37,587 bases of DNA from the NCBI GenBank assembly GCA_023485405.1, contig JAMCZU010000023.1, positions 1 through 37,587 on the forward strand. The letters run 5' to 3'. The notes beneath the pieces are model-generated. The model did not search any database. It had not been told where the DNA came from and saw nothing but the letters and a program-made list of their open reading frames with translations. The translations under genes were made by a program, and so were the position numbers. This stretch comes from Patescibacteria group bacterium (GTDB lineage Bacteria; Patescibacteriota; UBA1384; UBA12157; JAENIV01). The stretch's first letter is position 1, and the number at the start of each line of letters is the position of its first letter. Of this stretch, positions 1,942 to 31,541 are shown piece after piece.

Positions 1942-3669
1942 ATGCCTCAATCATTAGAAACCATTCGCCATTCATTGTCTCATGTATTAGCCGCAGCAGT
2001 CTTAAAAACGTTTCCCGAAGCCAAGCTCGGCATTGGGCCGGCCATTGAAAACGGCTTTTATTATGATTTCGATCTGCCCAAACCTTTAACGCCTGAAGAA
2101 TTAAAGACCCTTGAAAAGAAAATGCAAAAAATTATTGAGGATAGCTTTAAAATTGAACAATTTTCAAAAAGTAAAAAAAATGCGATTGAATTACTTAAGA
2201 AAGACACCCAATCTTATAAAATAGAGTTAATCGAGGAATTACCAGATCCAGAAGTGAGTTTCTATAAATTCGATGGTTTTTCCGATTTATGCAAAGGTCC
2301 GCATATCAAAAATACCTCGGAACTAAAAAAAGTTGGGTGGAAACTTGATAAAATTGCCGGAGCTTATTGGCGGGGCAATGAGAAAAATAAGATGCTTCAG
2401 CGAATTTATGGCCTTGCCTTTGAAACCCCAGAAGATCTCAGGCAATATGAGCAAATGCGTGCTGAAGCAGAAAAAAATGATCACCGCAAACTTGGCAAGG
2501 ATCTGGATTTATTTGTTTTTTCGGACTTAATTGGCCCGGGTTTACCACTTTTTACTCCCAAAGGAACACTTGTGAAAGAATTGCTGCAGACCAAAGTTGA
2601 AAATATTTGCAAAAGATTTGGATTTGATAAAGTTATGACTCCACATCTAGCAAAAATTAAACTCTATGAAATATCAGGACACGCTGAAAAATTTAGTGAT
2701 GAGCTGTTTCGTATAACTTCTAGACACAAACAAGATTATGTAATGAGACCTGTTTTATGCCCTCACCAAACACAAATATACGCTTCAAAACCACGATCTT
2801 ACAAAGAATTACCCATCCGTTATATGGAATCGGAAAAGATGTACCGGGCAGAAAAACCGGGAGAAATAGGAGGATTAAATAGAGTAATTGCTATCACCGT
2901 AGAAGACGGCCACTCTTTTTGTAGAGTTGATCAAGTGAAACAGGAAATTAAAAATATGGTTGAAATAATCAAAAGTTTTTACACAGATCTAGGGATGTGG
3001 GACAATCATTGGATTTCTTTATCAGTTAGAGATTATAGCAATCTGGAAAAATATATCGGTGAGTCCAAAGACTGGGATACATGCGAAAAAATACTTCAAG
3101 AAGTTTCAGATGAGATGAATTTAAATGCAAAAAAACGCGAGGGAGAAGCAGCCCTTTACGGCCCGAAGCTTGATTTCATGTTTAAAGATGCTATAGGCAG
3201 AGAAGTCCAAATTCCTACCGTTCAATTAGATTTTGCTACACCAAAAAGATTTAAGTTATCTTATATAAATGAAGGTGGAAAATCCGATATTCCAGTAATG
3301 GTACATCGAGCAATTTTAGGCTCATATGAAAGATTTATTGCTCTACTACTTGAACGTTTCGGTGGTGCTTTTCCTGTTTGGTTATCACCTGTTCAAGCAA
3401 TTGTGCTTCCGGTATCAGATAAGCATATAGAATATGCCAAGAAGGTTGCCGACGAGCTAAAAGAGGTCCGAATTGAAATCGACGATCGTAATGAATCAAT
3501 TGGTCGAAAAATTCGTGATGCCGAAATCCAAAAAATCCCATATATAATAGTTGTCGGCGATAAGGAAGAAAAAGATGACAACATCACTGTCCGCGAACGC
3601 GGTTCAAAAGAACTCGAAATCCAAAAGATTGGAAAATTTCTAGAGTCAGTCCAAAAAAATATCCAATAA
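1942..3669 (+). CDS. thrS: Threonyl-tRNA synthetase (bacterial type, no TGS domain)
   Basis: 575-aa class II synthetase that begins directly with the second editing domain. That domain's zinc/catalytic set is His10, His14 (RHSLSH), Cys117 and His121 (DLCKGPH). The catalytic core has an RPVLCPH zinc-cysteine stretch, motif 2 around YRAEKPGEIGGLNRV, VEDGHSFC, and motif 3 VHRAILGSYERF. An anticodon-binding domain follows (DDRNESIGRKIRDAE). The second Arg of the usual RVRGFTQDDAH is replaced (RVIAITVEDGH). TGS-less ThrRS is common in reduced genomes. The start has TTAGGAG 7 nt upstream. It lies behind a T-box-like leader and is probably the housekeeping enzyme, 270 bp from the archaeal-type copy. 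Confidence 0.93.
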   Translation: MPQSLETIRHSLSHVLAAAVLKTFPEAKLGIGPAIENGFYYDFDLPKPLTPEELKTLEKKMQKIIEDSFKIEQFSKSKKNAIELLKKDTQSYKIELIEELPDPEVSFYKFDGFSDLCKGPHIKNTSELKKVGWKLDKIAGAYWRGNEKNKMLQRIYGLAFETPEDLRQYEQMRAEAEKNDHRKLGKDLDLFVFSDLIGPGLPLFTPKGTLVKELLQTKVENICKRFGFDKVMTPHLAKIKLYEISGHAEKFSDELFRITSRHKQDYVMRPVLCPHQTQIYASKPRSYKELPIRYMESEKMYRAEKPGEIGGLNRVIAITVEDGHSFCRVDQVKQEIKNMVEIIKSFYTDLGMWDNHWISLSVRDYSNLEKYIGESKDWDTCEKILQEVSDEMNLNAKKREGEAALYGPKLDFMFKDAIGREVQIPTVQLDFATPKRFKLSYINEGGKSDIPVMVHRAILGSYERFIALLLERFGGAFPVWLSPVQAIVLPVSDKHIEYAKKVADELKEVRIEIDDRNESIGRKIRDAEIQKIPYIIVVGDKEEKDDNITVRERGSKELEIQKIGKFLESVQKNIQ

Positions 3670-24314: not shown

Positions 24315-24827
24315 TTAAATCTTTGCTGCTTTAATTATACCCGTTTTTCTTTTTGTCACAAAGAGCACAAATTCATAAAATCCAAACATTGAGCCGACAT
24401 AAAAAAGATCACCTAAAATAGTATTTTTAAAAAACGGAATAGCCAAAAAGTAACACTGCGTAATTCCTTCAATGGTTTTTGGATACCAAGGAGTAGCAGC
24501 CCAAACAGCAAAATTAGTCATCAAAAAAAAGATGACTGAGCCTAAAAATGTTGCCCCTAAAATATTGGAAAAATTTTTATGGTTTTTAAGCCATAACCCA
24601 ATCAAACCAATCAGTAAGAAACTTAAGTAAATTGAAAAAGTAACCCAAAACTCAGCAAAACCAATAAAAATATCTGAAAAAAGCATCGCCAAAAGTGGCA
24701 CCGCTAAAGCATATTTTTTATTTAAGTAAACACCGCCAAAAAGCCCTAATGCCGCAATCGGCGCAAAGTTCGGCAGATGAGGTATTAGTCTTAAAACAAC
24801 ACCTGCAATAATAAAGAAAATCGCCAT
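24315..24827 (-). CDS. DUF6580-type membrane protein (ECF S-component-like)
   Basis: 170 aa, five to six TM segments. The signature RLIPHLPNFAPIAALGLFGG, then FSDIFIGF and TNFAVWAATPWYPKT, matches DUF6580 proteins, which resemble substrate-binding S components of energy-coupling-factor transporters. It lies downstream of a cobalamin-riboswitch-controlled gene, so uptake of cobalamin or a related corrinoid is the natural inference. No EcfA or EcfT gene is in this window. GGGAG lies 6 nt before the ATG. Confidence 0.75.
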   Translation of the reverse strand: MAIFFIIAGVVLRLIPHLPNFAPIAALGLFGGVYLNKKYALAVPLLAMLFSDIFIGFAEFWVTFSIYLSFLLIGLIGLWLKNHKNFSNILGATFLGSVIFFLMTNFAVWAATPWYPKTIEGITQCYFLAIPFFKNTILGDLFYVGSMFGFYEFVLFVTKRKTGIIKAAKI

Positions 24828-24951: not shown

Positions 24952-25602
24952 TTATTCAAATTTCCAAGTTGTCACATCGTTGACAAAAACCGGCTGACTC
25001 GATGCCCCCACTGACGAAAATTGACCATTATAGTAAAACATCCAATATTTCTGATCTTTGCCACCACATATTCCACTAATACAATTTATCATCGCGCCTA
25101 AATCGCCATAGTATTGGTAACTCAATGTAAAATTATTTTCCTCGGAAGCACGAAGTAAAACCGAAAAAGCTGTATCGTTTTCTTTTAGATTTACTTTGTA
25201 ACTTGGTAGGCCCTGAATTTCAACTGTGGCTGTTTTTTGAGGTATTGGCGTAGATGTAGGAGTAGCAATAGGAATTGAGGTGGGCGCAAAATTAATTGCA
25301 GTCGAACTGCGATGTGGTTTTGACGTTGAATTTGGTGTTAGCGTTGGCACAAAAACGGGTGTTTCTTGCGTTACCAAAAATGGAGTTGATTGAGTTTCGA
25401 CTGATTGGGGTGTTGGTATAATTTGATTTTTAGTTGGTTGAGCTGTTGGCGTAATATTAGATGTTACCGCCACCGGCACTTTTTGTTTTATCTTGGCTTC
25501 AGCCAATTTTGGGTTTTTTAAAAACACCCCGCCTAAATAAATTAAACCAATTAAAGTCATTGCCACAACCGGAAACCAAGTAAATTGCCAAAATTTTTTC
25601 AC
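24952..25602 (-). CDS. DUF4430 surface protein, probable corrinoid binder
   Basis: 216 aa. One N-terminal TM segment (FTWFPVVAMTLIGLIYLGGVF) anchors it; a Thr/Pro-rich linker (about 45-125) spans the envelope. The C-terminal 90 residues form a DUF4430 domain (transcobalamin-like C-terminal domain): NDTAFSVLLRASEENNF, YYGDLGAMINCI, KYWMFYYNGQ. Such domains bind or recruit cobalamin-like ligands at the surface. The gene follows a cobalamin riboswitch with terminator, which supports a corrinoid role. AAGGAGG lies before the GTG start at 25602. The next gene downstream is the DUF6580 transporter-like protein. Confidence 0.8.
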   Translation of the reverse strand: MKKFWQFTWFPVVAMTLIGLIYLGGVFLKNPKLAEAKIKQKVPVAVTSNITPTAQPTKNQIIPTPQSVETQSTPFLVTQETPVFVPTLTPNSTSKPHRSSTAINFAPTSIPIATPTSTPIPQKTATVEIQGLPSYKVNLKENDTAFSVLLRASEENNFTLSYQYYGDLGAMINCISGICGGKDQKYWMFYYNGQFSSVGASSQPVFVNDVTTWKFE

Positions 25603-25682: not shown

Positions 25683-25693
25683 AGGCTTAAAAT

Positions 25694-25793
25694 TAACTTA
25701 TAAGTAGGTTTTCTGGCTTGTCCGACGTCATGTCGGATTCACAGTAGCGGGACTGCTCCTGATTCCCACAGGATTACCCATACTCATAAGTTT
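25694..25793 (-). promoter_or_regulatory. Cobalamin riboswitch
   Basis: The minus strand carries GGGAATCAGGAGCAGTCCCG, then CTACTGTGA, a variable stem (TCCGACATGACGTCGGA) and the B12 box AAGCCAGAAAACCTACTT. AACTTAT and ATAAGTT close it as P1 (25792-25786 with 25701-25695). At about 100 nt it is a compact form. It lies 90 nt upstream of the DUF4430 gene and is followed by a terminator/antiterminator pair, so cobalamin should switch off the DUF4430-DUF6580 genes. Confidence 0.92.
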
Positions 25794-25888
25794 AAATTTT
25801 AAAGGTAGTTTTAAGTTATCAATGGTATATTTCTTTGTCAACTGTGGATAAGTACACCCAACAGTTTTTAATTATAATAAAATATTAG

Positions 25889-27637
25889 TTACCTTAACCC
25901 AATCTTGTCAACCACAATTTGACGAGGGTCAGAAGGACCTGCACACGCTATTTGTACAATCACCCGAGTCGCCCATGCTGGTGGATTAAGTGGCACATAT
26001 ATCCACTGATTAGTTACGCCCGCCAAGTATGGATTTGTCTCCAATGCACCAGTATTTGTTATAGTTGAGTAATATCGAACATACACCCCATTCCAATTCG
26101 TTGACGTATGATCCGGCTGATATAAATACTGGATGTTTGTCTGTACCAAAGAGTTTGCACCTACTATCTGTACCTGTGCTCTAAATATCATTGGTCTTCC
26201 AGTTTGTATGAGTCTATCCATACCAACAGTTTGACCATTATTAAGTGTAGCTGGTAGTGCCACAGTTGTACCACTACCATCATTCGGCCACGGTGCAGAC
26301 CAAGCAGTTCGACCTAACACCGCTCCAGTAGCGGCATCAATAAACGGAGCAATTGTCTTGGCGAGAGCTAGAGTATCAGGATGAACCAAAGCAATATATC
26401 CAGCATTGCGAGCAGCAATCAAGCGATCAATATCTGCTTTCCAAAACGCCCAGTTATGATTAATACCATTGGCATGGAAATTAAACATAGTACGAGCATC
26501 AGTATACCTCAAATTAGTGGCGTTAGCGGCAACACAGTTAGCGGCTTCTCCTATTGTAATTCTATGTATAAGATAACGCGGTTGACTGACACTCCCATTT
26601 TTGCTATAAATATTACCTCCATCAAGACCACCAGTAGAAAACAGGTAACCTCCACGAGTTAATTCGCCATAGTTACCTCTCATATTGTCAATCCCAACAT
26701 TAGCATTATCAGGAAATCCACCATTAGCAGCATAAGCTCTTACATTTGCCCCAACTTCTTTATAAATATATTCAGTCATAGCAGCATCTGAGCTAACTGC
26801 ACCAGCTTTAATCGGTCTATAATACCAATTCGTGATATTTACAGTCGCATCTGCAACAGCAGCTTCAGTAGATAAACTATTTAAATAATCTCTACTAGCA
26901 ATTAATTCTTTTATCCAATTTGAATCGGTTACTGGATAAGAGTTACTGTGTGTCCAGGTATGTCCTAAAATTGATGCGCCAGCTACAGTTTTTAACATAT
27001 GTAAATGACGAGCATACATCTTTCCAGCAGTTCCAACAAAACTAGAAGGCACAGAATGGCCACAGGGAACTCCATTTTGAATAAGATACTGAAATGGAGT
27101 AATACCACCACCAATATCAGCAGTAAAAAAATTATCAGCACCGTCATCATTTGTGAGTGCTACCAGCGGCATGTCCCAATCTGTACCCCAATAATCATTG
27201 GGTATATTAGGAGTTTGAGTACCAAGCTGTCCAACTTTGAGGGAAATATCAGAGGAGCGCATTACTGTTATATACGCATTGTTAGATGGTGTAGGAATTA
27301 CACCCTCACCACAAATTACTGTATATCTATTTGTTTCAGATGCTCCCGCGGCAACCGCCGCATCTACAGCAGCCTGAACAGTAGTATAATCACAGCCACT
27401 CGTACCAACAGTATAAATATTGGAAGGTTTACCAGCTTTTAAATTAAGGGCAGTTTGGGTAGCAGTTGAAACTGGCTTGTTGGCATCGGAAGTATTGTCA
27501 ACATTAGTTAAACCAACCTTACTTTTATCAATTGGTTTTAGAGTCCCATCAGCTTCGTGAGAAGTATTTAAAAATTCATTTAAAATATTCCCCCAATTAC
27601 CATCATCACCACCAGGGATAGGCAATCTGGCTGTCAT
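25889..27637 (-). CDS. Tail-fibre-like protein with NodB-like deacetylase domain (copy 2)
   Basis: 582 aa. Residues 1-35 hold LPIPGGDDGNWGNILNEFLN, shared with the paralogue at 27897. Residues 38-70 (VGLTNVDNTSDANKPVSTAT) match a repeat typical of phage tail fibres. From about 145 a polysaccharide-deacetylase-like domain follows: LTNDDG (NodB motif 1), GHTWTHSN (motif 2, metal His), and late FNFHANGINH and VHPDTL. The end (from about 480) is beta-rich and probably binds carbohydrate. No signal peptide of its own. Its ATG overlaps the stop of the Tat-signal gene as ATGA, with AAGGGG upstream. It is the last gene of the Tat operon. It would act on an extracellular glycan, if exported through the partner. 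Confidence 0.75.
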   Translation of the reverse strand: MTARLPIPGGDDGNWGNILNEFLNTSHEADGTLKPIDKSKVGLTNVDNTSDANKPVSTATQTALNLKAGKPSNIYTVGTSGCDYTTVQAAVDAAVAAGASETNRYTVICGEGVIPTPSNNAYITVMRSSDISLKVGQLGTQTPNIPNDYWGTDWDMPLVALTNDDGADNFFTADIGGGITPFQYLIQNGVPCGHSVPSSFVGTAGKMYARHLHMLKTVAGASILGHTWTHSNSYPVTDSNWIKELIASRDYLNSLSTEAAVADATVNITNWYYRPIKAGAVSSDAAMTEYIYKEVGANVRAYAANGGFPDNANVGIDNMRGNYGELTRGGYLFSTGGLDGGNIYSKNGSVSQPRYLIHRITIGEAANCVAANATNLRYTDARTMFNFHANGINHNWAFWKADIDRLIAARNAGYIALVHPDTLALAKTIAPFIDAATGAVLGRTAWSAPWPNDGSGTTVALPATLNNGQTVGMDRLIQTGRPMIFRAQVQIVGANSLVQTNIQYLYQPDHTSTNWNGVYVRYYSTITNTGALETNPYLAGVTNQWIYVPLNPPAWATRVIVQIACAGPSDPRQIVVDKIGLR

Positions 27638-27835
27638 TTCAATACCCCTTCTTTACCCCCATAACTGTTTGACCCAAATCCATTTGTTTTCTTTAAAAGA
27701 TGAGGGTTAGATAGAGTTCGCAGAAGGGCACTAATACCAATTACCGCTAGAAGCAAAGCGCCAATATGAACTAAAAATTCCCGTCTGTCCATTTCCTTTT
27801 CCAAGAGCTCTTTAAATAAATTCACTTTCCCTCCC
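27563..27835. repeat. 273-bp direct repeat, copy A (Tat-signal gene and deacetylase start)
   Basis: Identical to 29706-29978 except for one base (the deacetylase codon region). It covers the SD and whole small gene plus the first 25 codons of the deacetylase. Outside the repeat the deacetylase genes are widely diverged. Confidence 0.95.
27634..27825 (-). CDS. Small twin-arginine-signal membrane protein (copy A)
   Basis: 63 aa, protein identical to the copy at 29777. An amphipathic N-terminus (NLFKELLEKE) is followed by DRREFLVHIG, which fits the Tat consensus (S/T)RRxFLK, and a hydrophobic stretch ALLLAVIGISALL. A short tail ends in GFGSNSYGG. There is nothing else, so it is a Tat signal/anchor without a passenger. 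Start is GTG with GGAGG 4 nt upstream. Its stop overlaps the deacetylase start (ATGA). TatA and TatC are encoded just upstream. Likely role: partner, carrier or frameshift-fused signal for the deacetylase. Confidence 0.8.
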   Translation of the reverse strand: MNLFKELLEKEMDRREFLVHIGALLLAVIGISALLRTLSNPHLLKKTNGFGSNSYGGKEGVLK

Positions 27836-27896
27836 TAAGAAATAGCTTTTAAGTTAGAATAATACATTAGATATTATAGCAGTATTTATTTTCATT

Positions 27897-29780
27897 TTAA
27901 TCAAGCATACAATTAATATTTGTAATTTGAAAAGTTGCACCATCAGGAACACGAAGTAATATTTCAGTACGACCATTAGACCAATCAGGCACAAGAATAG
28001 GGATTGAAAAAGTAGACCAAGTATTCGGCACATATCTACTATCCCAAAGAACATAATATAAAGCTGTTTCAGTTAGATTAACATCATCAGTAGGATCATA
28101 AAAAACACCATAAGTCCATTCAACATTAGCAGCAACAGCAAGTTTTATTCTCATGCTAAATATCGAATGACGACCAGGAATACAATTTAAATATAAAAAG
28201 ATATTTTTTGTAGAACCAGAAGAATTAACAACTTGGAGATAATTACCTTCAGTTACATCATTACCAATAGTAACTGTACCACCATCAACATTTATAAAAT
28301 CAGCTCGATCGGCTGGCCAAGCTCCAACACTAAAATTCCAAAAATCTTCACGAGTTATCATACCAACAGGTGATTGAATAATATGCGCAGCATCGTAAAT
28401 TGGTGATTGAGCTTGAACACCAAGATGAAGAGCATCGCAAGTCACAGCATCAACACGCCTGGTCGGATAAGTTGCTCGATCTTCACGAAGAGCCACAACA
28501 GCTTGAACAAAATATGTAAGCGGTAATTTATTCGCAGCATCTAAAGGGTCATGAATTAAAACTTCTAATCTTGCACCAGGCCTAGCACAACGCTCAAGCA
28601 AAGCCTTTGCAGCAGCCAATGACGAAAAGACACTAATGCCAATATACCTTTTAAAATGAGGAATTGGTCCAGGCCAACCAATCGAACCGCTATCCCCAAT
28701 AACATAAGAAGAAGACCACTCAACATTTTCTCGAATATGGCGCGCTATCCATTTATCAAGATCAACAGAATTTTCAACCAATGATGCAACATTAGCAGCA
28801 TCACCAGCAGTTCCCCAAGTACCAGGAAAAACAAAACCACGAATTGGCGCACCTAATCTATTGGAAGGAGCAGAAGCTCTAGTAATATCACGAAGTTCAG
28901 CAATAGAAGTATTAACTTCATTAGTTAGCTCAGCCATTGTAGCCGGGCCATTTCCATGAGTATACGAATGAGAAGCAAGAGAGCAACCATATTTTTCAAC
29001 TAAAGTACAAATTTGAGCAGTGGTGAAATGACTGGCAGTGCCAATAAGATTATTCACTATGGCATGTGTGACTGGTATACCATAATAAGCACAATACTCA
29101 GCCGCAGACTTATTCACACCATTAATAGCAAAAGCGGCATCAGCAATCAGCCAGTTTGAATATCCATCATCTGACCGAAGAGCAACCAACATTCCAGTTT
29201 GATTTAATGAATAAGGAAATTGGGTTACTTCATCGGCAGGATATAATCCTTGGCTATGCCGAACTGGAGCATTTAAAAATTTTACATCAACATTGGCCGC
29301 TTTAGTAAAAACATGATCGCAGCCCGGCATACCTAAAATTAAATAACGATTACTTGCAGTCGCTATTGCCGCAGCAGCTGTAACTGCATCTTGTAAAACA
29401 GTATAGTCACAGCCAGAAGCACCAACCGTGAAAACATTGGCTTTTTTTAATAAATTTGATTTAGTAATTTTCTTGGCAGTGCCACCATCGTTGATGGGAA
29501 TTTCTAAAGTCTCATTGGTCGTGGCAAGAGCAGACAGTCCAGCTGTTGCAGGTTGTTTGGTGTTAAAAGTAACATGGTCTCCTTGAGTTAAATAACCATC
29601 TTGACCATCAGTGGCTGCCCCTAATTTTGTTTTGATCGTTGCTTGAGTTTCATCTCCAGTATTAGTACCTGTGGTATTCTTTAGAGTACCATCATCATTA
29701 TGCGCAGTATTTAAAAATTCATTTAAAATATTCCCCCAATTACCATCGTCACCACCAGGGATAGGCAATCTGGCTGTCAT
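27897..29780 (-). CDS. Tail-fibre-like protein with NodB-like deacetylase domain (copy 1)
   Basis: 627 aa. The N-terminus shares LPIPGGDDGNWGNILNEFLN with the other copy. Then comes TGTNTGDETQATIKTKLGAA and a TQGDHVTFNTKQP segment, both like phage tail-fibre repeats. The deacetylase-like domain has LRSDDGYSNW (NodB motif 1 Asp), SHSYTHGNG (motif 2 His pair), GFVFPGTWG and LIHDPLDA. A C-terminal beta-sandwich (about 500-627) looks carbohydrate-binding. No signal peptide. ATGA overlap with the Tat-signal gene upstream. It belongs to the tatA-tatC transcript. Enzyme activity is inferred from motifs only. Confidence 0.78.
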   Translation of the reverse strand: MTARLPIPGGDDGNWGNILNEFLNTAHNDDGTLKNTTGTNTGDETQATIKTKLGAATDGQDGYLTQGDHVTFNTKQPATAGLSALATTNETLEIPINDGGTAKKITKSNLLKKANVFTVGASGCDYTVLQDAVTAAAAIATASNRYLILGMPGCDHVFTKAANVDVKFLNAPVRHSQGLYPADEVTQFPYSLNQTGMLVALRSDDGYSNWLIADAAFAINGVNKSAAEYCAYYGIPVTHAIVNNLIGTASHFTTAQICTLVEKYGCSLASHSYTHGNGPATMAELTNEVNTSIAELRDITRASAPSNRLGAPIRGFVFPGTWGTAGDAANVASLVENSVDLDKWIARHIRENVEWSSSYVIGDSGSIGWPGPIPHFKRYIGISVFSSLAAAKALLERCARPGARLEVLIHDPLDAANKLPLTYFVQAVVALREDRATYPTRRVDAVTCDALHLGVQAQSPIYDAAHIIQSPVGMITREDFWNFSVGAWPADRADFINVDGGTVTIGNDVTEGNYLQVVNSSGSTKNIFLYLNCIPGRHSIFSMRIKLAVAANVEWTYGVFYDPTDDVNLTETALYYVLWDSRYVPNTWSTFSIPILVPDWSNGRTEILLRVPDGATFQITNINCMLD

Positions 29781-29978
29781 TTCAATACCCCTTCTTTACC
29801 CCCATAACTGTTTGACCCAAATCCATTTGTTTTCTTTAAAAGATGAGGGTTAGATAGAGTTCGCAGAAGGGCACTAATACCAATTACCGCTAGAAGCAAA
29901 GCGCCAATATGAACTAAAAATTCCCGTCTGTCCATTTCCTTTTCCAAGAGCTCTTTAAATAAATTCACTTTCCCTCCC
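29706..29978. repeat. 273-bp direct repeat, copy B
   Basis: Partner of 27563-27835, one mismatch in 273 bp. Confidence 0.95.
29777..29968 (-). CDS. Small twin-arginine-signal membrane protein (copy B)
   Basis: 63 aa, same sequence as copy A (DRREFLVHIG plus hydrophobic core and GFGSNSYGG tail). The GTG at 29968 matches the only start possible in copy A, so the upstream TTG here is not used. It lies 41 bp after tatC and overlaps the following deacetylase by ATGA. The order tatC - Tat-signal protein - deacetylase makes it the probable dedicated Tat client of this operon. Confidence 0.8.
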   Translation of the reverse strand: MNLFKELLEKEMDRREFLVHIGALLLAVIGISALLRTLSNPHLLKKTNGFGSNSYGGKEGVLK

Positions 29979-30008
29979 AAAGAACAATATTAATTTAATA
30001 ATATAAAA

Positions 30009-30815
30009 TTATTTATTAGATATCAATAAAACATCAAGAACTACCAACATTGTTATGATTGTCACCAGGAAAAAAATAAAGAAATACCAAACAAAAGTAT
30101 CTTTTCGAAACGGTTTTTTATCCTTATTGACCATCCAGACAAGAAAAACAGAAAGTTCGTATAAGATTATAATCGGCAAAGCCATAATGGTTTGGTTAAC
30201 TGGGTCAGGTGTCGGCGTGAGAATGGCAGCCACAATAAAACTCGAAACAATCATTATTTTTTGCCACTTCATTAGTTGTTTTATGCTTATTTGATGGGCA
30301 TAATTTATCAATAATATGATGACTGGCATTTGGAATAATATCCCCAGTCCAATCAAATAGATCATAATAAAAGAAAAATACTCACTGGTAGTGATAAGTG
30401 CCTGTATTTGCCCGTTACCAAAACCTTTTAAAAAATGAATGGCAGCCGGAATAAAGAAATAAAAACCAACTAGTAAACTAATGATTAGTAAACAAAAAGA
30501 AAAAAAGACCAGTTTGGGTACAATTTTTTTAACATTTTCAGATAAAATAGGCTGGCAGAATTTTATAATTTCATAAGTTAAAATTGGCAAAGAAACTAAA
30601 AAACCAAAAAGGATAGCTGTTTGCATCACAAAATTAAAACCACCCATCGGTGAAGTATAAAACAAAGATTCCCCTAAGGGTTTAACTAACAATGTGAGTA
30701 AAAAATTGCTTTTAATAAATCCGATTACACTTCCGAGAATAAAAAAAATAAACCAAACTAACAAACGTAGTCTGAGTTCATTAATATGATCAGAAAACGA
30801 TTGTTTTGTTAACAT
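30009..30815 (-). CDS. tatC: Twin-arginine translocase subunit TatC
   Basis: 268 aa with six TM segments. Conserved features: FSDHINELRLRLL at the N-terminus (signal recognition), a periplasmic-loop YTSPMGGFNF, and LTPTPDPVNQTIMALPIIILYE before TM5/6. TatC binds the RR motif of folded Tat substrates. It starts 5 bp after tatA's stop and leads to two predicted RR-signal proteins downstream. Confidence 0.95.
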   Translation of the reverse strand: MLTKQSFSDHINELRLRLLVWFIFFILGSVIGFIKSNFLLTLLVKPLGESLFYTSPMGGFNFVMQTAILFGFLVSLPILTYEIIKFCQPILSENVKKIVPKLVFFSFCLLIISLLVGFYFFIPAAIHFLKGFGNGQIQALITTSEYFSFIMIYLIGLGILFQMPVIILLINYAHQISIKQLMKWQKIMIVSSFIVAAILTPTPDPVNQTIMALPIIILYELSVFLVWMVNKDKKPFRKDTFVWYFFIFFLVTIITMLVVLDVLLISNK

Positions 30816-30820
30816 CTACC

Positions 30821-31018
30821 TTAAGCCTTTTTTTCGGCATCTCCTTGGTGTTCTTTTTTATCTTCGGCCTTAGCATGCGGATCGTCAGAAAGTCCCTTTC
30901 GAAGTTCCCTAATTGATTGACCAATGCCCTTAGCTAACTGCGGCAACTTGGTAGCCCCAAATAACACTAGTACTATTATTAATATGAGGATTAATTCCTC
31001 TGTACCTAATCCAAACAT
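30821..31018 (-). CDS. tatA: Twin-arginine translocase subunit TatA/E
   Basis: 65 aa. N-terminal TM (ELILILIIVLVLFGATKLP) with the FG-x-x-x-LP hinge, then an amphipathic helix (AKGIGQSIRELRKGL) and an acidic/basic tail. This is the TatA/TatE layout; no separate TatB is seen, consistent with minimal TatAC systems. AAAGGA lies 7 nt before the ATG. First gene of the operon. Confidence 0.93.
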   Translation of the reverse strand: MFGLGTEELILILIIVLVLFGATKLPQLAKGIGQSIRELRKGLSDDPHAKAEDKKEHQGDAEKKA

Positions 31019-31103: not shown

Positions 31104-31541
31104 ATGATTCAACAATTACATATTAGCAAATCAAAGAAAAAAAAGATAGTGATTAATTTATTTTTGTTAATAGTTTTTATAATCGCCACTACATTTATAT
31201 TGCCAAAAAATGTTCTAGCTAGCCCATATGGCACGTCCAATTATAACGCTGGACAATACGGACAACAAGGAACCACCGGCTCTTCTGTGGTTTCACAATC
31301 ATCAGTTAACAAAGTTCAAAAAGCTGTTAACGATATTAAATTAAAATTACAGAAGCTTAGACTAAAAAAATTAAAACCAAAATTAAAAGAAGTCACTCAA
31401 AAACAAATAACTAAAGTCAAAATAGCCAAAAAAAATCTCGAAATCAAACTTAAAAATCTTAAAAACAAATTGCTTCAACAAATTAAGAAAAAAACATCTG
31501 AAAATAAAATAATACTTCCTAGCTATTATATGCCTGCTTAA
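31104..31541 (+). CDS. Secreted very basic helical protein
   Basis: 145 aa. A signal sequence (KKKIVINLFLLIVFIIATTF) ends near NVLAS. A YG-rich stretch (SPYGTSNYNAGQYGQQG) follows, of a kind I associate with CPR surface proteins. Residues about 65-135 are a Lys/Leu-rich amphipathic helix (IKLKLQKLRLKKLKPKLKEV) and the end is SYYMPA. It could bind DNA, the anionic cell surface or membranes; unknown. Weak SD AGGAAAG. It is divergent from tatA with AT-rich overlapping promoters (TATAAT at about 31053 and 31074). Confidence 0.7.
   Translation: MIQQLHISKSKKKKIVINLFLLIVFIIATTFILPKNVLASPYGTSNYNAGQYGQQGTTGSSVVSQSSVNKVQKAVNDIKLKLQKLRLKKLKPKLKEVTQKQITKVKIAKKNLEIKLKNLKNKLLQQIKKKTSENKIILPSYYMPA

Follow-up and report, generated by a model that had tools for sequence, protein, structure and literature searches.

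A small protein with a twin-arginine-type motif as a probable carrier of signal-less, fibre-like proteins in Patescibacteria

How tiny, mostly uncultured and often host-dependent bacteria display recognition proteins and enzymes is largely an open question. It is raised in a specific form by a locus of a Patescibacteria group bacterium (GCA_023485405.1), in which genes of the twin-arginine translocation (Tat) system are followed by large proteins with no signal of their own: how might such proteins leave the cell? The window analysed here is the whole 37,587-nucleotide contig JAMCZU010000023.1, contig 12 of an 832-kb genome. On its minus strand lie, in order, tatA (30821..31018; 65 residues; Pfam TatA_B_E, 2.3e-14, above the cut-off), tatC (30009..30815; 268 residues; Pfam TatC, 3.9e-48), a gene for a 63-residue protein with an arginine pair (29777..29968), a gene for a 627-residue protein (27897..29780), a second copy of the small gene (27634..27825) and a gene for a 582-residue protein (25889..27637). 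Comparison of the junctions placed an ATGA overlap of stop and start codons within each pair (29777..29780 and 27634..27637), and the gene order agreed with that described in an earlier note on this DNA. Our analysis indicates that the 63-residue protein is probably a dedicated, uncleaved Tat signal-anchor, acting in trans and carrying folded, fibre-like clients to the cell surface.

Copy 1 of the small protein was delimited by its open reading frame, by its match to the NCBIfam family NF038009 and by a family alignment. It begins at a GTG codon behind the Shine-Dalgarno sequence GGGAGG (63 codons; an alternative in-frame TTG would give 67) and consists of the Tat-type motif DRREFL (29915..29932), a hydrophobic core and the tail FGSNSYGG, within which FGSNSYG (29801..29821) has the form [YF]Gxxx[YF]G. 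Copy 2, assigned by open reading frame and DNA comparison, encodes an identical product with the tail motif at 27658..27678. The duplication extends into the partner genes: a cassette comprising the Shine-Dalgarno sequence, the small gene and the start of the partner is identical over 230 bp between copy 1 (29749..29978) and copy 2 (27606..27835), and beyond this stretch only a single mismatch occurs up to roughly partner codon 25, after which the likeness collapses. As the downstream proteins are only distantly alike (31% identity overall), the copied unit was the small gene together with the N terminus of its partner. Neither partner has a signal peptide, as the earlier note had also held; each starts directly with a 34-residue module (29679..29780 and 27536..27637), termed the leader below.

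The N termini of the partners followed the consensus MxxRLPxPGxDDGxWGxxLNxFLxxxHxxDGTLK. A single-sequence search with the leader in the class gave no match, and a similar search with the small protein in near relatives gave none outside the source genome; relatives of the small protein were found by profile searches only. A comparison sample of 380 genomes of the phylum was the basis for all of the following counts. The leader profile detected 59 proteins, termed clients, in 21 genomes, with the leader located at, or a few residues from, the apparent start in every case. None of these proteins had a signal of its own, and the open frame upstream of the leader, at most 31 codons long, contained no signal peptide. 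Past the leader the clients were unrelated in length and content, with a mean column identity of 8% over the full alignment. In one genome (G101, C76:256333-262648), four leader-bearing genes of about 670 to 680 codons each stood in tandem, showing signs of recent client amplification.

TatC was present in 33 genomes, and all 21 leader genomes had both TatC and the small protein. The latter was detected by NF038009 in 19 of them and was first seen by eye beside tatC in the other two (G100 and G314), all being confirmed with a dedicated profile. A further 11 genomes had TatC with neither the leader nor the small protein; in these, the dedicated profile gave three matches only, all in one genome (G059), at ~1e-4 and within proteins of ~360 residues that do not belong to the small family. 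Naive Fisher tests gave 1e-33 for leader and small protein, 2e-26 for leader and TatC, and 6e-8 within the TatC genomes. The leader genomes span ten families, one of which (f61) holds both states, and the same set of tatA, tatC, small gene and leader protein was found on a named Saccharibacteria contig.

Only 11 of the 59 clients come directly after a small gene; in G368, a twelfth is preceded at a distance of 12 nt by a truncated small gene, with an intact copy elsewhere in that genome. Most genomes with the system have one small gene and one to seven clients, located mostly elsewhere in the genome, indicating that the small protein must act in trans. The proposal in the earlier note of a carrier or anchor that supplies the Tat signal was strongly supported by the comparative evidence and found to be widespread, but the supply of one signal gene per partner was not sustained. 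On the question put in that note, whether the small gene always precedes a signal-less protein with an ATGA overlap, all clients lacked signals, most were not adjacent to a small gene and spacings varied. Some small genes had no partner beside them; all of their genomes had tatC, and all but one had partners elsewhere.

The closest family to the small protein in NCBIfam is NF038009 (TatB_1, 'twin-arginine translocation system-associated protein'), which the window protein matched at 7e-12 and 45 bits, under the curated cut-off of 100 bits. This profile matched 22 genomes of the sample at E ≤ 0.001, with a best score of 66 bits and none at the cut-off; weak matches within long reading frames in two of these (G085 and G378) were discounted after the search with the dedicated profile. 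The likeness to TatB_1 is one of family membership by profile; the name implies a TatB role, but the entry gives no client or mechanism. About 15 of 25 small genes lay within ~3 kb of tatA or tatC. An alignment of 23 small proteins showed three constant features, namely xRxxFL, a hydrophobic helix that has no obvious cleavage site, and the C-terminal [YF]Gxxx[YF]G tail (23 of 23). Judged from sequence, this layout of an arginine-containing N-terminal region, a membrane helix and a short tail rich in Gly and Tyr is not that of TatB, in which an N-terminal membrane helix is followed by a long amphipathic helix. The DRREFL of the window protein conforms to the twin-arginine pattern S/T-R-R-x-F-L-K before a hydrophobic core. 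Over the family, the first Arg was nearly invariant and the Phe invariant, the second Arg being replaced by Lys, Thr, Gln or Gly in 15 of 22 genomes, such that the family as a whole fits the Tat motif only partly. A possibly parallel variant was seen in a genome with TatC only (G132), where an 83-residue protein with RRRKFL and without the YG tail is encoded right after tatC, with a phage-like protein upstream.

In the core complex of Escherichia coli, Glu103 of TatC forms a pair with the second signal Arg (PMC13323110). The window TatC has no equivalent of this Glu, as judged from an alignment with Aquifex TatC (4b4a) and 29 other TatCs of the phylum. In alignments to Aquifex TatC and within the phylum, the Glu was kept in all seven scorable TatC-only genomes versus 3 of the 22 genomes with the small protein. 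The three that keep it (family f33) also keep the second Arg of the small protein (SRRDFLKG, SRRDFLKG and TKRQFIKS), and among the 19 that do not, the second position was Arg in 4 and Lys, Thr, Gln or Gly in 15 (Fisher p = 0.02). In some of the Glu-less TatCs, an acidic residue lies some two positions before this site, and compensation is therefore possible. The TAT_signal profile, which is insensitive, detected few other candidate substrates in genomes with the system, and several TatC-only genomes had ordinary twin-arginine proteins.

Many of the 59 clients matched PHROGs families of tail fibre, tail spike, minor tail and pre-neck appendage proteins, and the Pfam domains among them included pectate-lyase-like, DUF5907, BppL_N, endosialidase N-terminal extension, collagen, GDSL lipase and S74 fibre chaperone domains. 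The 582-residue window client, composed of the leader, an actinophage tail-fibre-like neck and a NodB-like region, matched phrog_35419 (tail fiber, 7.5e-15), and its neck was 60 to 80% identical to actinophage minor tail proteins. The 627-residue client, for which there was no PHROG match, comprises the leader, a neck, a NodB-like domain and a C-terminal beta-rich region, the last assigned by the composition of a poor model only. The leader was also located at the N terminus of fibre proteins within phage structural modules; these were found in metaviral contigs only, a tblastn search of GenBank phages giving no match. These phage proteins carry the leader as LPTxGGDxGxWGxxLNxFL and have the same neck and C-terminal domains. 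They differ from the clients, which are encoded in cellular genomes, beside tat or scattered, and are apparently served by the small protein rather than by a phage tail. From these sequence matches, the clients are a tail-fibre/tail-spike-type family with a common N-terminal leader and interchangeable C-terminal domains.

The earlier note had identified the cargo as NodB-like deacetylase, a description that could not be upheld for clients with such varied C-terminal domains and that applies to the window in part. Both window clients keep the metal-binding motifs DDG and HxxxH of NodB and other deacetylases of carbohydrate esterase family 4 (SDDG/HSYTH and NDDG/HTWTH). Unlike the known enzymes, both are signal-less and fall under the 23.1-bit Pfam cut-off for Polysacc_deac_1 (PF01522), with E = 0.0026 and 18.1 bits for the 627-residue client and E = 0.24 and 11.8 bits for the 582-residue client; the Pro after the second His of H(S/T)xxHP is also absent. 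No homologous deacetylase with its own signal was found, one weak match outside the source genome not having been looked into. Essentially no other genome of the sample has a close relative of the deacetylase domain, indicating turnover of the C-terminal domains behind a retained leader. Searches of viral contigs and phages with these domains gave no match for the 627-residue client and the neck only for the 582-residue client, and a search against solved structures gave no significant match.

A motif similar to the tail of the small protein was detected in proteins with signals for the general secretory (Sec) pathway. Most sampled loci had divergent or neighbouring Sec-type proteins in which YGxGxYG-like motifs come close behind the signal; in the window, the divergent gene at 31104..31541 (plus strand), for which counterparts occur at the loci sampled from most related genomes, encodes a Sec-signal protein in which YGTSNYNAGQYG directly follows the signal, a candidate surface acceptor. 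In G240 and G383, a Phe-type tail in the small protein was matched by a Phe-type neighbouring Sec protein (PFGxxxFGADVPFG). The tandem motif was counted 28 times in leader-bearing phage loci versus 5.4 ± 2.5 in shuffles, a comparison that has no leader-less phage control and in which the motifs cluster in few proteins. The pattern suggests that the [YF]G motif is a docking site for the leader, and the Sec-signal proteins that bear it may be surface acceptors.

Individual examples near a tat operon or small gene were Sec-signal proteins with YGxGxYG or PFGxxxFG at the mature N terminus in loci L035, L036, L037, L045, L046, L048, L049, L052 and L032. Phage structural proteins with tandem YGxGxYG repeats were seen beside leader-bearing fibres in L089 (4287-5996), L090 (4314-5981), L175 (2205-3890) and L085 (5518-5700). 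Three TatC-only genomes (G318, G196 and G097) had in common a Sec-type protein with 'FxPGxxVTxGEFxxDDxxxPxT' beside tatC, another Tat-linked surface gene.

Tail fibres fold in the cytoplasm, and this property fits with the Tat system. In the proposed mechanism, clients would fold, and probably trimerise, in the cytoplasm before export; the small protein would capture the client leader with its [YF]Gxxx[YF]G tail, or a nearby part, and would dock in TatC with its xRxxFL motif and hydrophobic helix. Small protein and client would then cross through TatA/TatC as a folded complex, for which one signal peptide per oligomer would suffice, as is the case for Tat (PMC13323110). After export, the small protein might stay as a membrane anchor, or the fibre might pass to the Sec-exported surface proteins with the same [YF]G motif. 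In the window, both clients would be NodB-like enzymes on such fibres; their probable targets would be glycans, either of a partner cell or of the bacterium's own surface. A wider proposal, which we make tentatively and hold to be somewhat less than probable, is that these elements form an undescribed display pathway of Patescibacteria type, in which domesticated phage fibres and spikes sharing a leader are exported and displayed in trans by the Tat signal-anchor with its [YF]Gxxx[YF]G docking tail, the docking pair came from phage tails, and TatC became specialized for a single adaptor.

Export of a signal-less folded protein with a signal-bearing partner is established as hitchhiking for redox enzymes (PMC10924467, PMC4273604), including NiFe hydrogenases, formate dehydrogenase and PaoABC. 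The present system resembles these in that signal-less proteins are encoded with a signal-bearing one, adjacently in 11 pairs and in the same genome for all 59 clients. It differs in that the signal is not on a functional enzyme subunit but on a protein with little to it beyond signal and anchor, and in that many unrelated clients, with no evident redox cofactor, are apparently served via a common leader. Earlier work has recorded Tat in Microgenomatia, Paceibacteria and Saccharimonadia (PMC9166423) and in one Saccharibacteria genome, where four genes were predicted to encode a TAT motif and two of the four have no known function (PMC6031116); no description of the leader, the clients or their pairing was found in the literature searched.

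Several other explanations were considered. The earlier note had offered, as an alternative to a carrier, a -1 shift at the ATGA overlap, and a programmed frameshift or stop readthrough yielding a single fused Tat precursor from the two genes would accord with that overlap and with the four of nine tight junctions that happen to be in frame. The spacings of these nine (-4, -4, -1, +2, +3, +3, +6, +11 and +18) and their TGA, TAG and TAA stops, however, have no frame or stop codon in common, indicating that a fused precursor is not the mechanism. There is no conserved slippery site with a fixed frame relation (no slippery heptamer in the window), most clients adjoin no small gene, and fusion was rejected as scarcely credible. 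Clients that are prophage remnants or cytoplasmic proteins, with an incidental tat neighbourhood, could be imagined given the N-terminal leader of fibre proteins in phage contigs. This explanation is contradicted in the main by the fact that clients always occur together with tatC and the small protein across the 10 families, and also by the several scattered copies per genome, the lack of phage neighbours in the window and the conserved coupling, all of which make it very improbable.

In the main rival explanation, the small protein would belong permanently to the translocase, as a TatB-like adaptor at TatC that is not exported and reads the leader as an unusual export signal. The TatB_1 name of the closest family, the single small protein per genome for several clients, the relaxed second Arg and the absence at the locus of any TatB-like gene beyond the single tatA are all consistent with such a role. 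The order of elements is nevertheless that of a Tat signal rather than of TatB, the window protein scores 45 bits against a cut-off of 100, and a tail motif shared with Sec-exported proteins suggests a role outside, so that we regard this adaptor as unlikely. Somewhat less likely still is a small protein that serves as a surface anchor or docking site only, its [YF]G tail catching fibres that exit by lysis or an unknown secretion route. The tail would indeed face outside, like the motif at the mature N terminus of the Sec-exported neighbours, and phage fibres, to which the clients bear a resemblance, lack an export route themselves; but this would leave unexplained why clients occur only alongside tatC, why translation of small gene and client is coupled at several loci, and why TatC co-varies with the small protein.

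Export by a trans-acting signal-anchor remains the preferred reading, and several points weigh against it. The frequent loss of the second Arg weakens its description as a simple canonical Tat signal. The 22 TatCs of genomes with the system form one group apart from the TatC-only group (support 89/86), and the co-occurrence therefore reflects few independent events, with inflated p-values. G383 has TatC and the small protein with no leader detected. AlphaFold2 models of the two clients, predicted alone and not as complexes, had a predicted local distance difference test score (pLDDT) of 32 and were unusable. Physical binding and localization are, moreover, what we infer, and likewise export by Tat, display at the surface, the function of the tail motif and the enzymatic activity.

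If the reading is correct, a single small gene next to the Tat machinery could allow ultra-small bacteria to bring a whole array of proteins out of the cell and onto its surface, a case of an export signal turned into a separate, reusable protein. The leader would then mark signal-less tail-fibre-like proteins as exported, making surface proteins readable directly from genomes, where ordinary signal-peptide predictors miss all 59 clients. It would also explain the retention of Tat in some reduced genomes with few or no detectable ordinary Tat substrates.

Two further observations were made elsewhere in the window. A cobalamin riboswitch (Rfam RF00174, 48.9 bits; 25686-25802, minus strand) lies upstream of two genes, 24952-25602 for a secreted DUF4430 protein and 24315-24827 for a small membrane protein with multiple helices, an arrangement that looks like a B12 uptake unit. 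Two consecutive threonyl-tRNA-synthetase-like genes, recognized by eye only, occupy 242-1675 and 1942-3669 (plus strand), the first of them being divergent.

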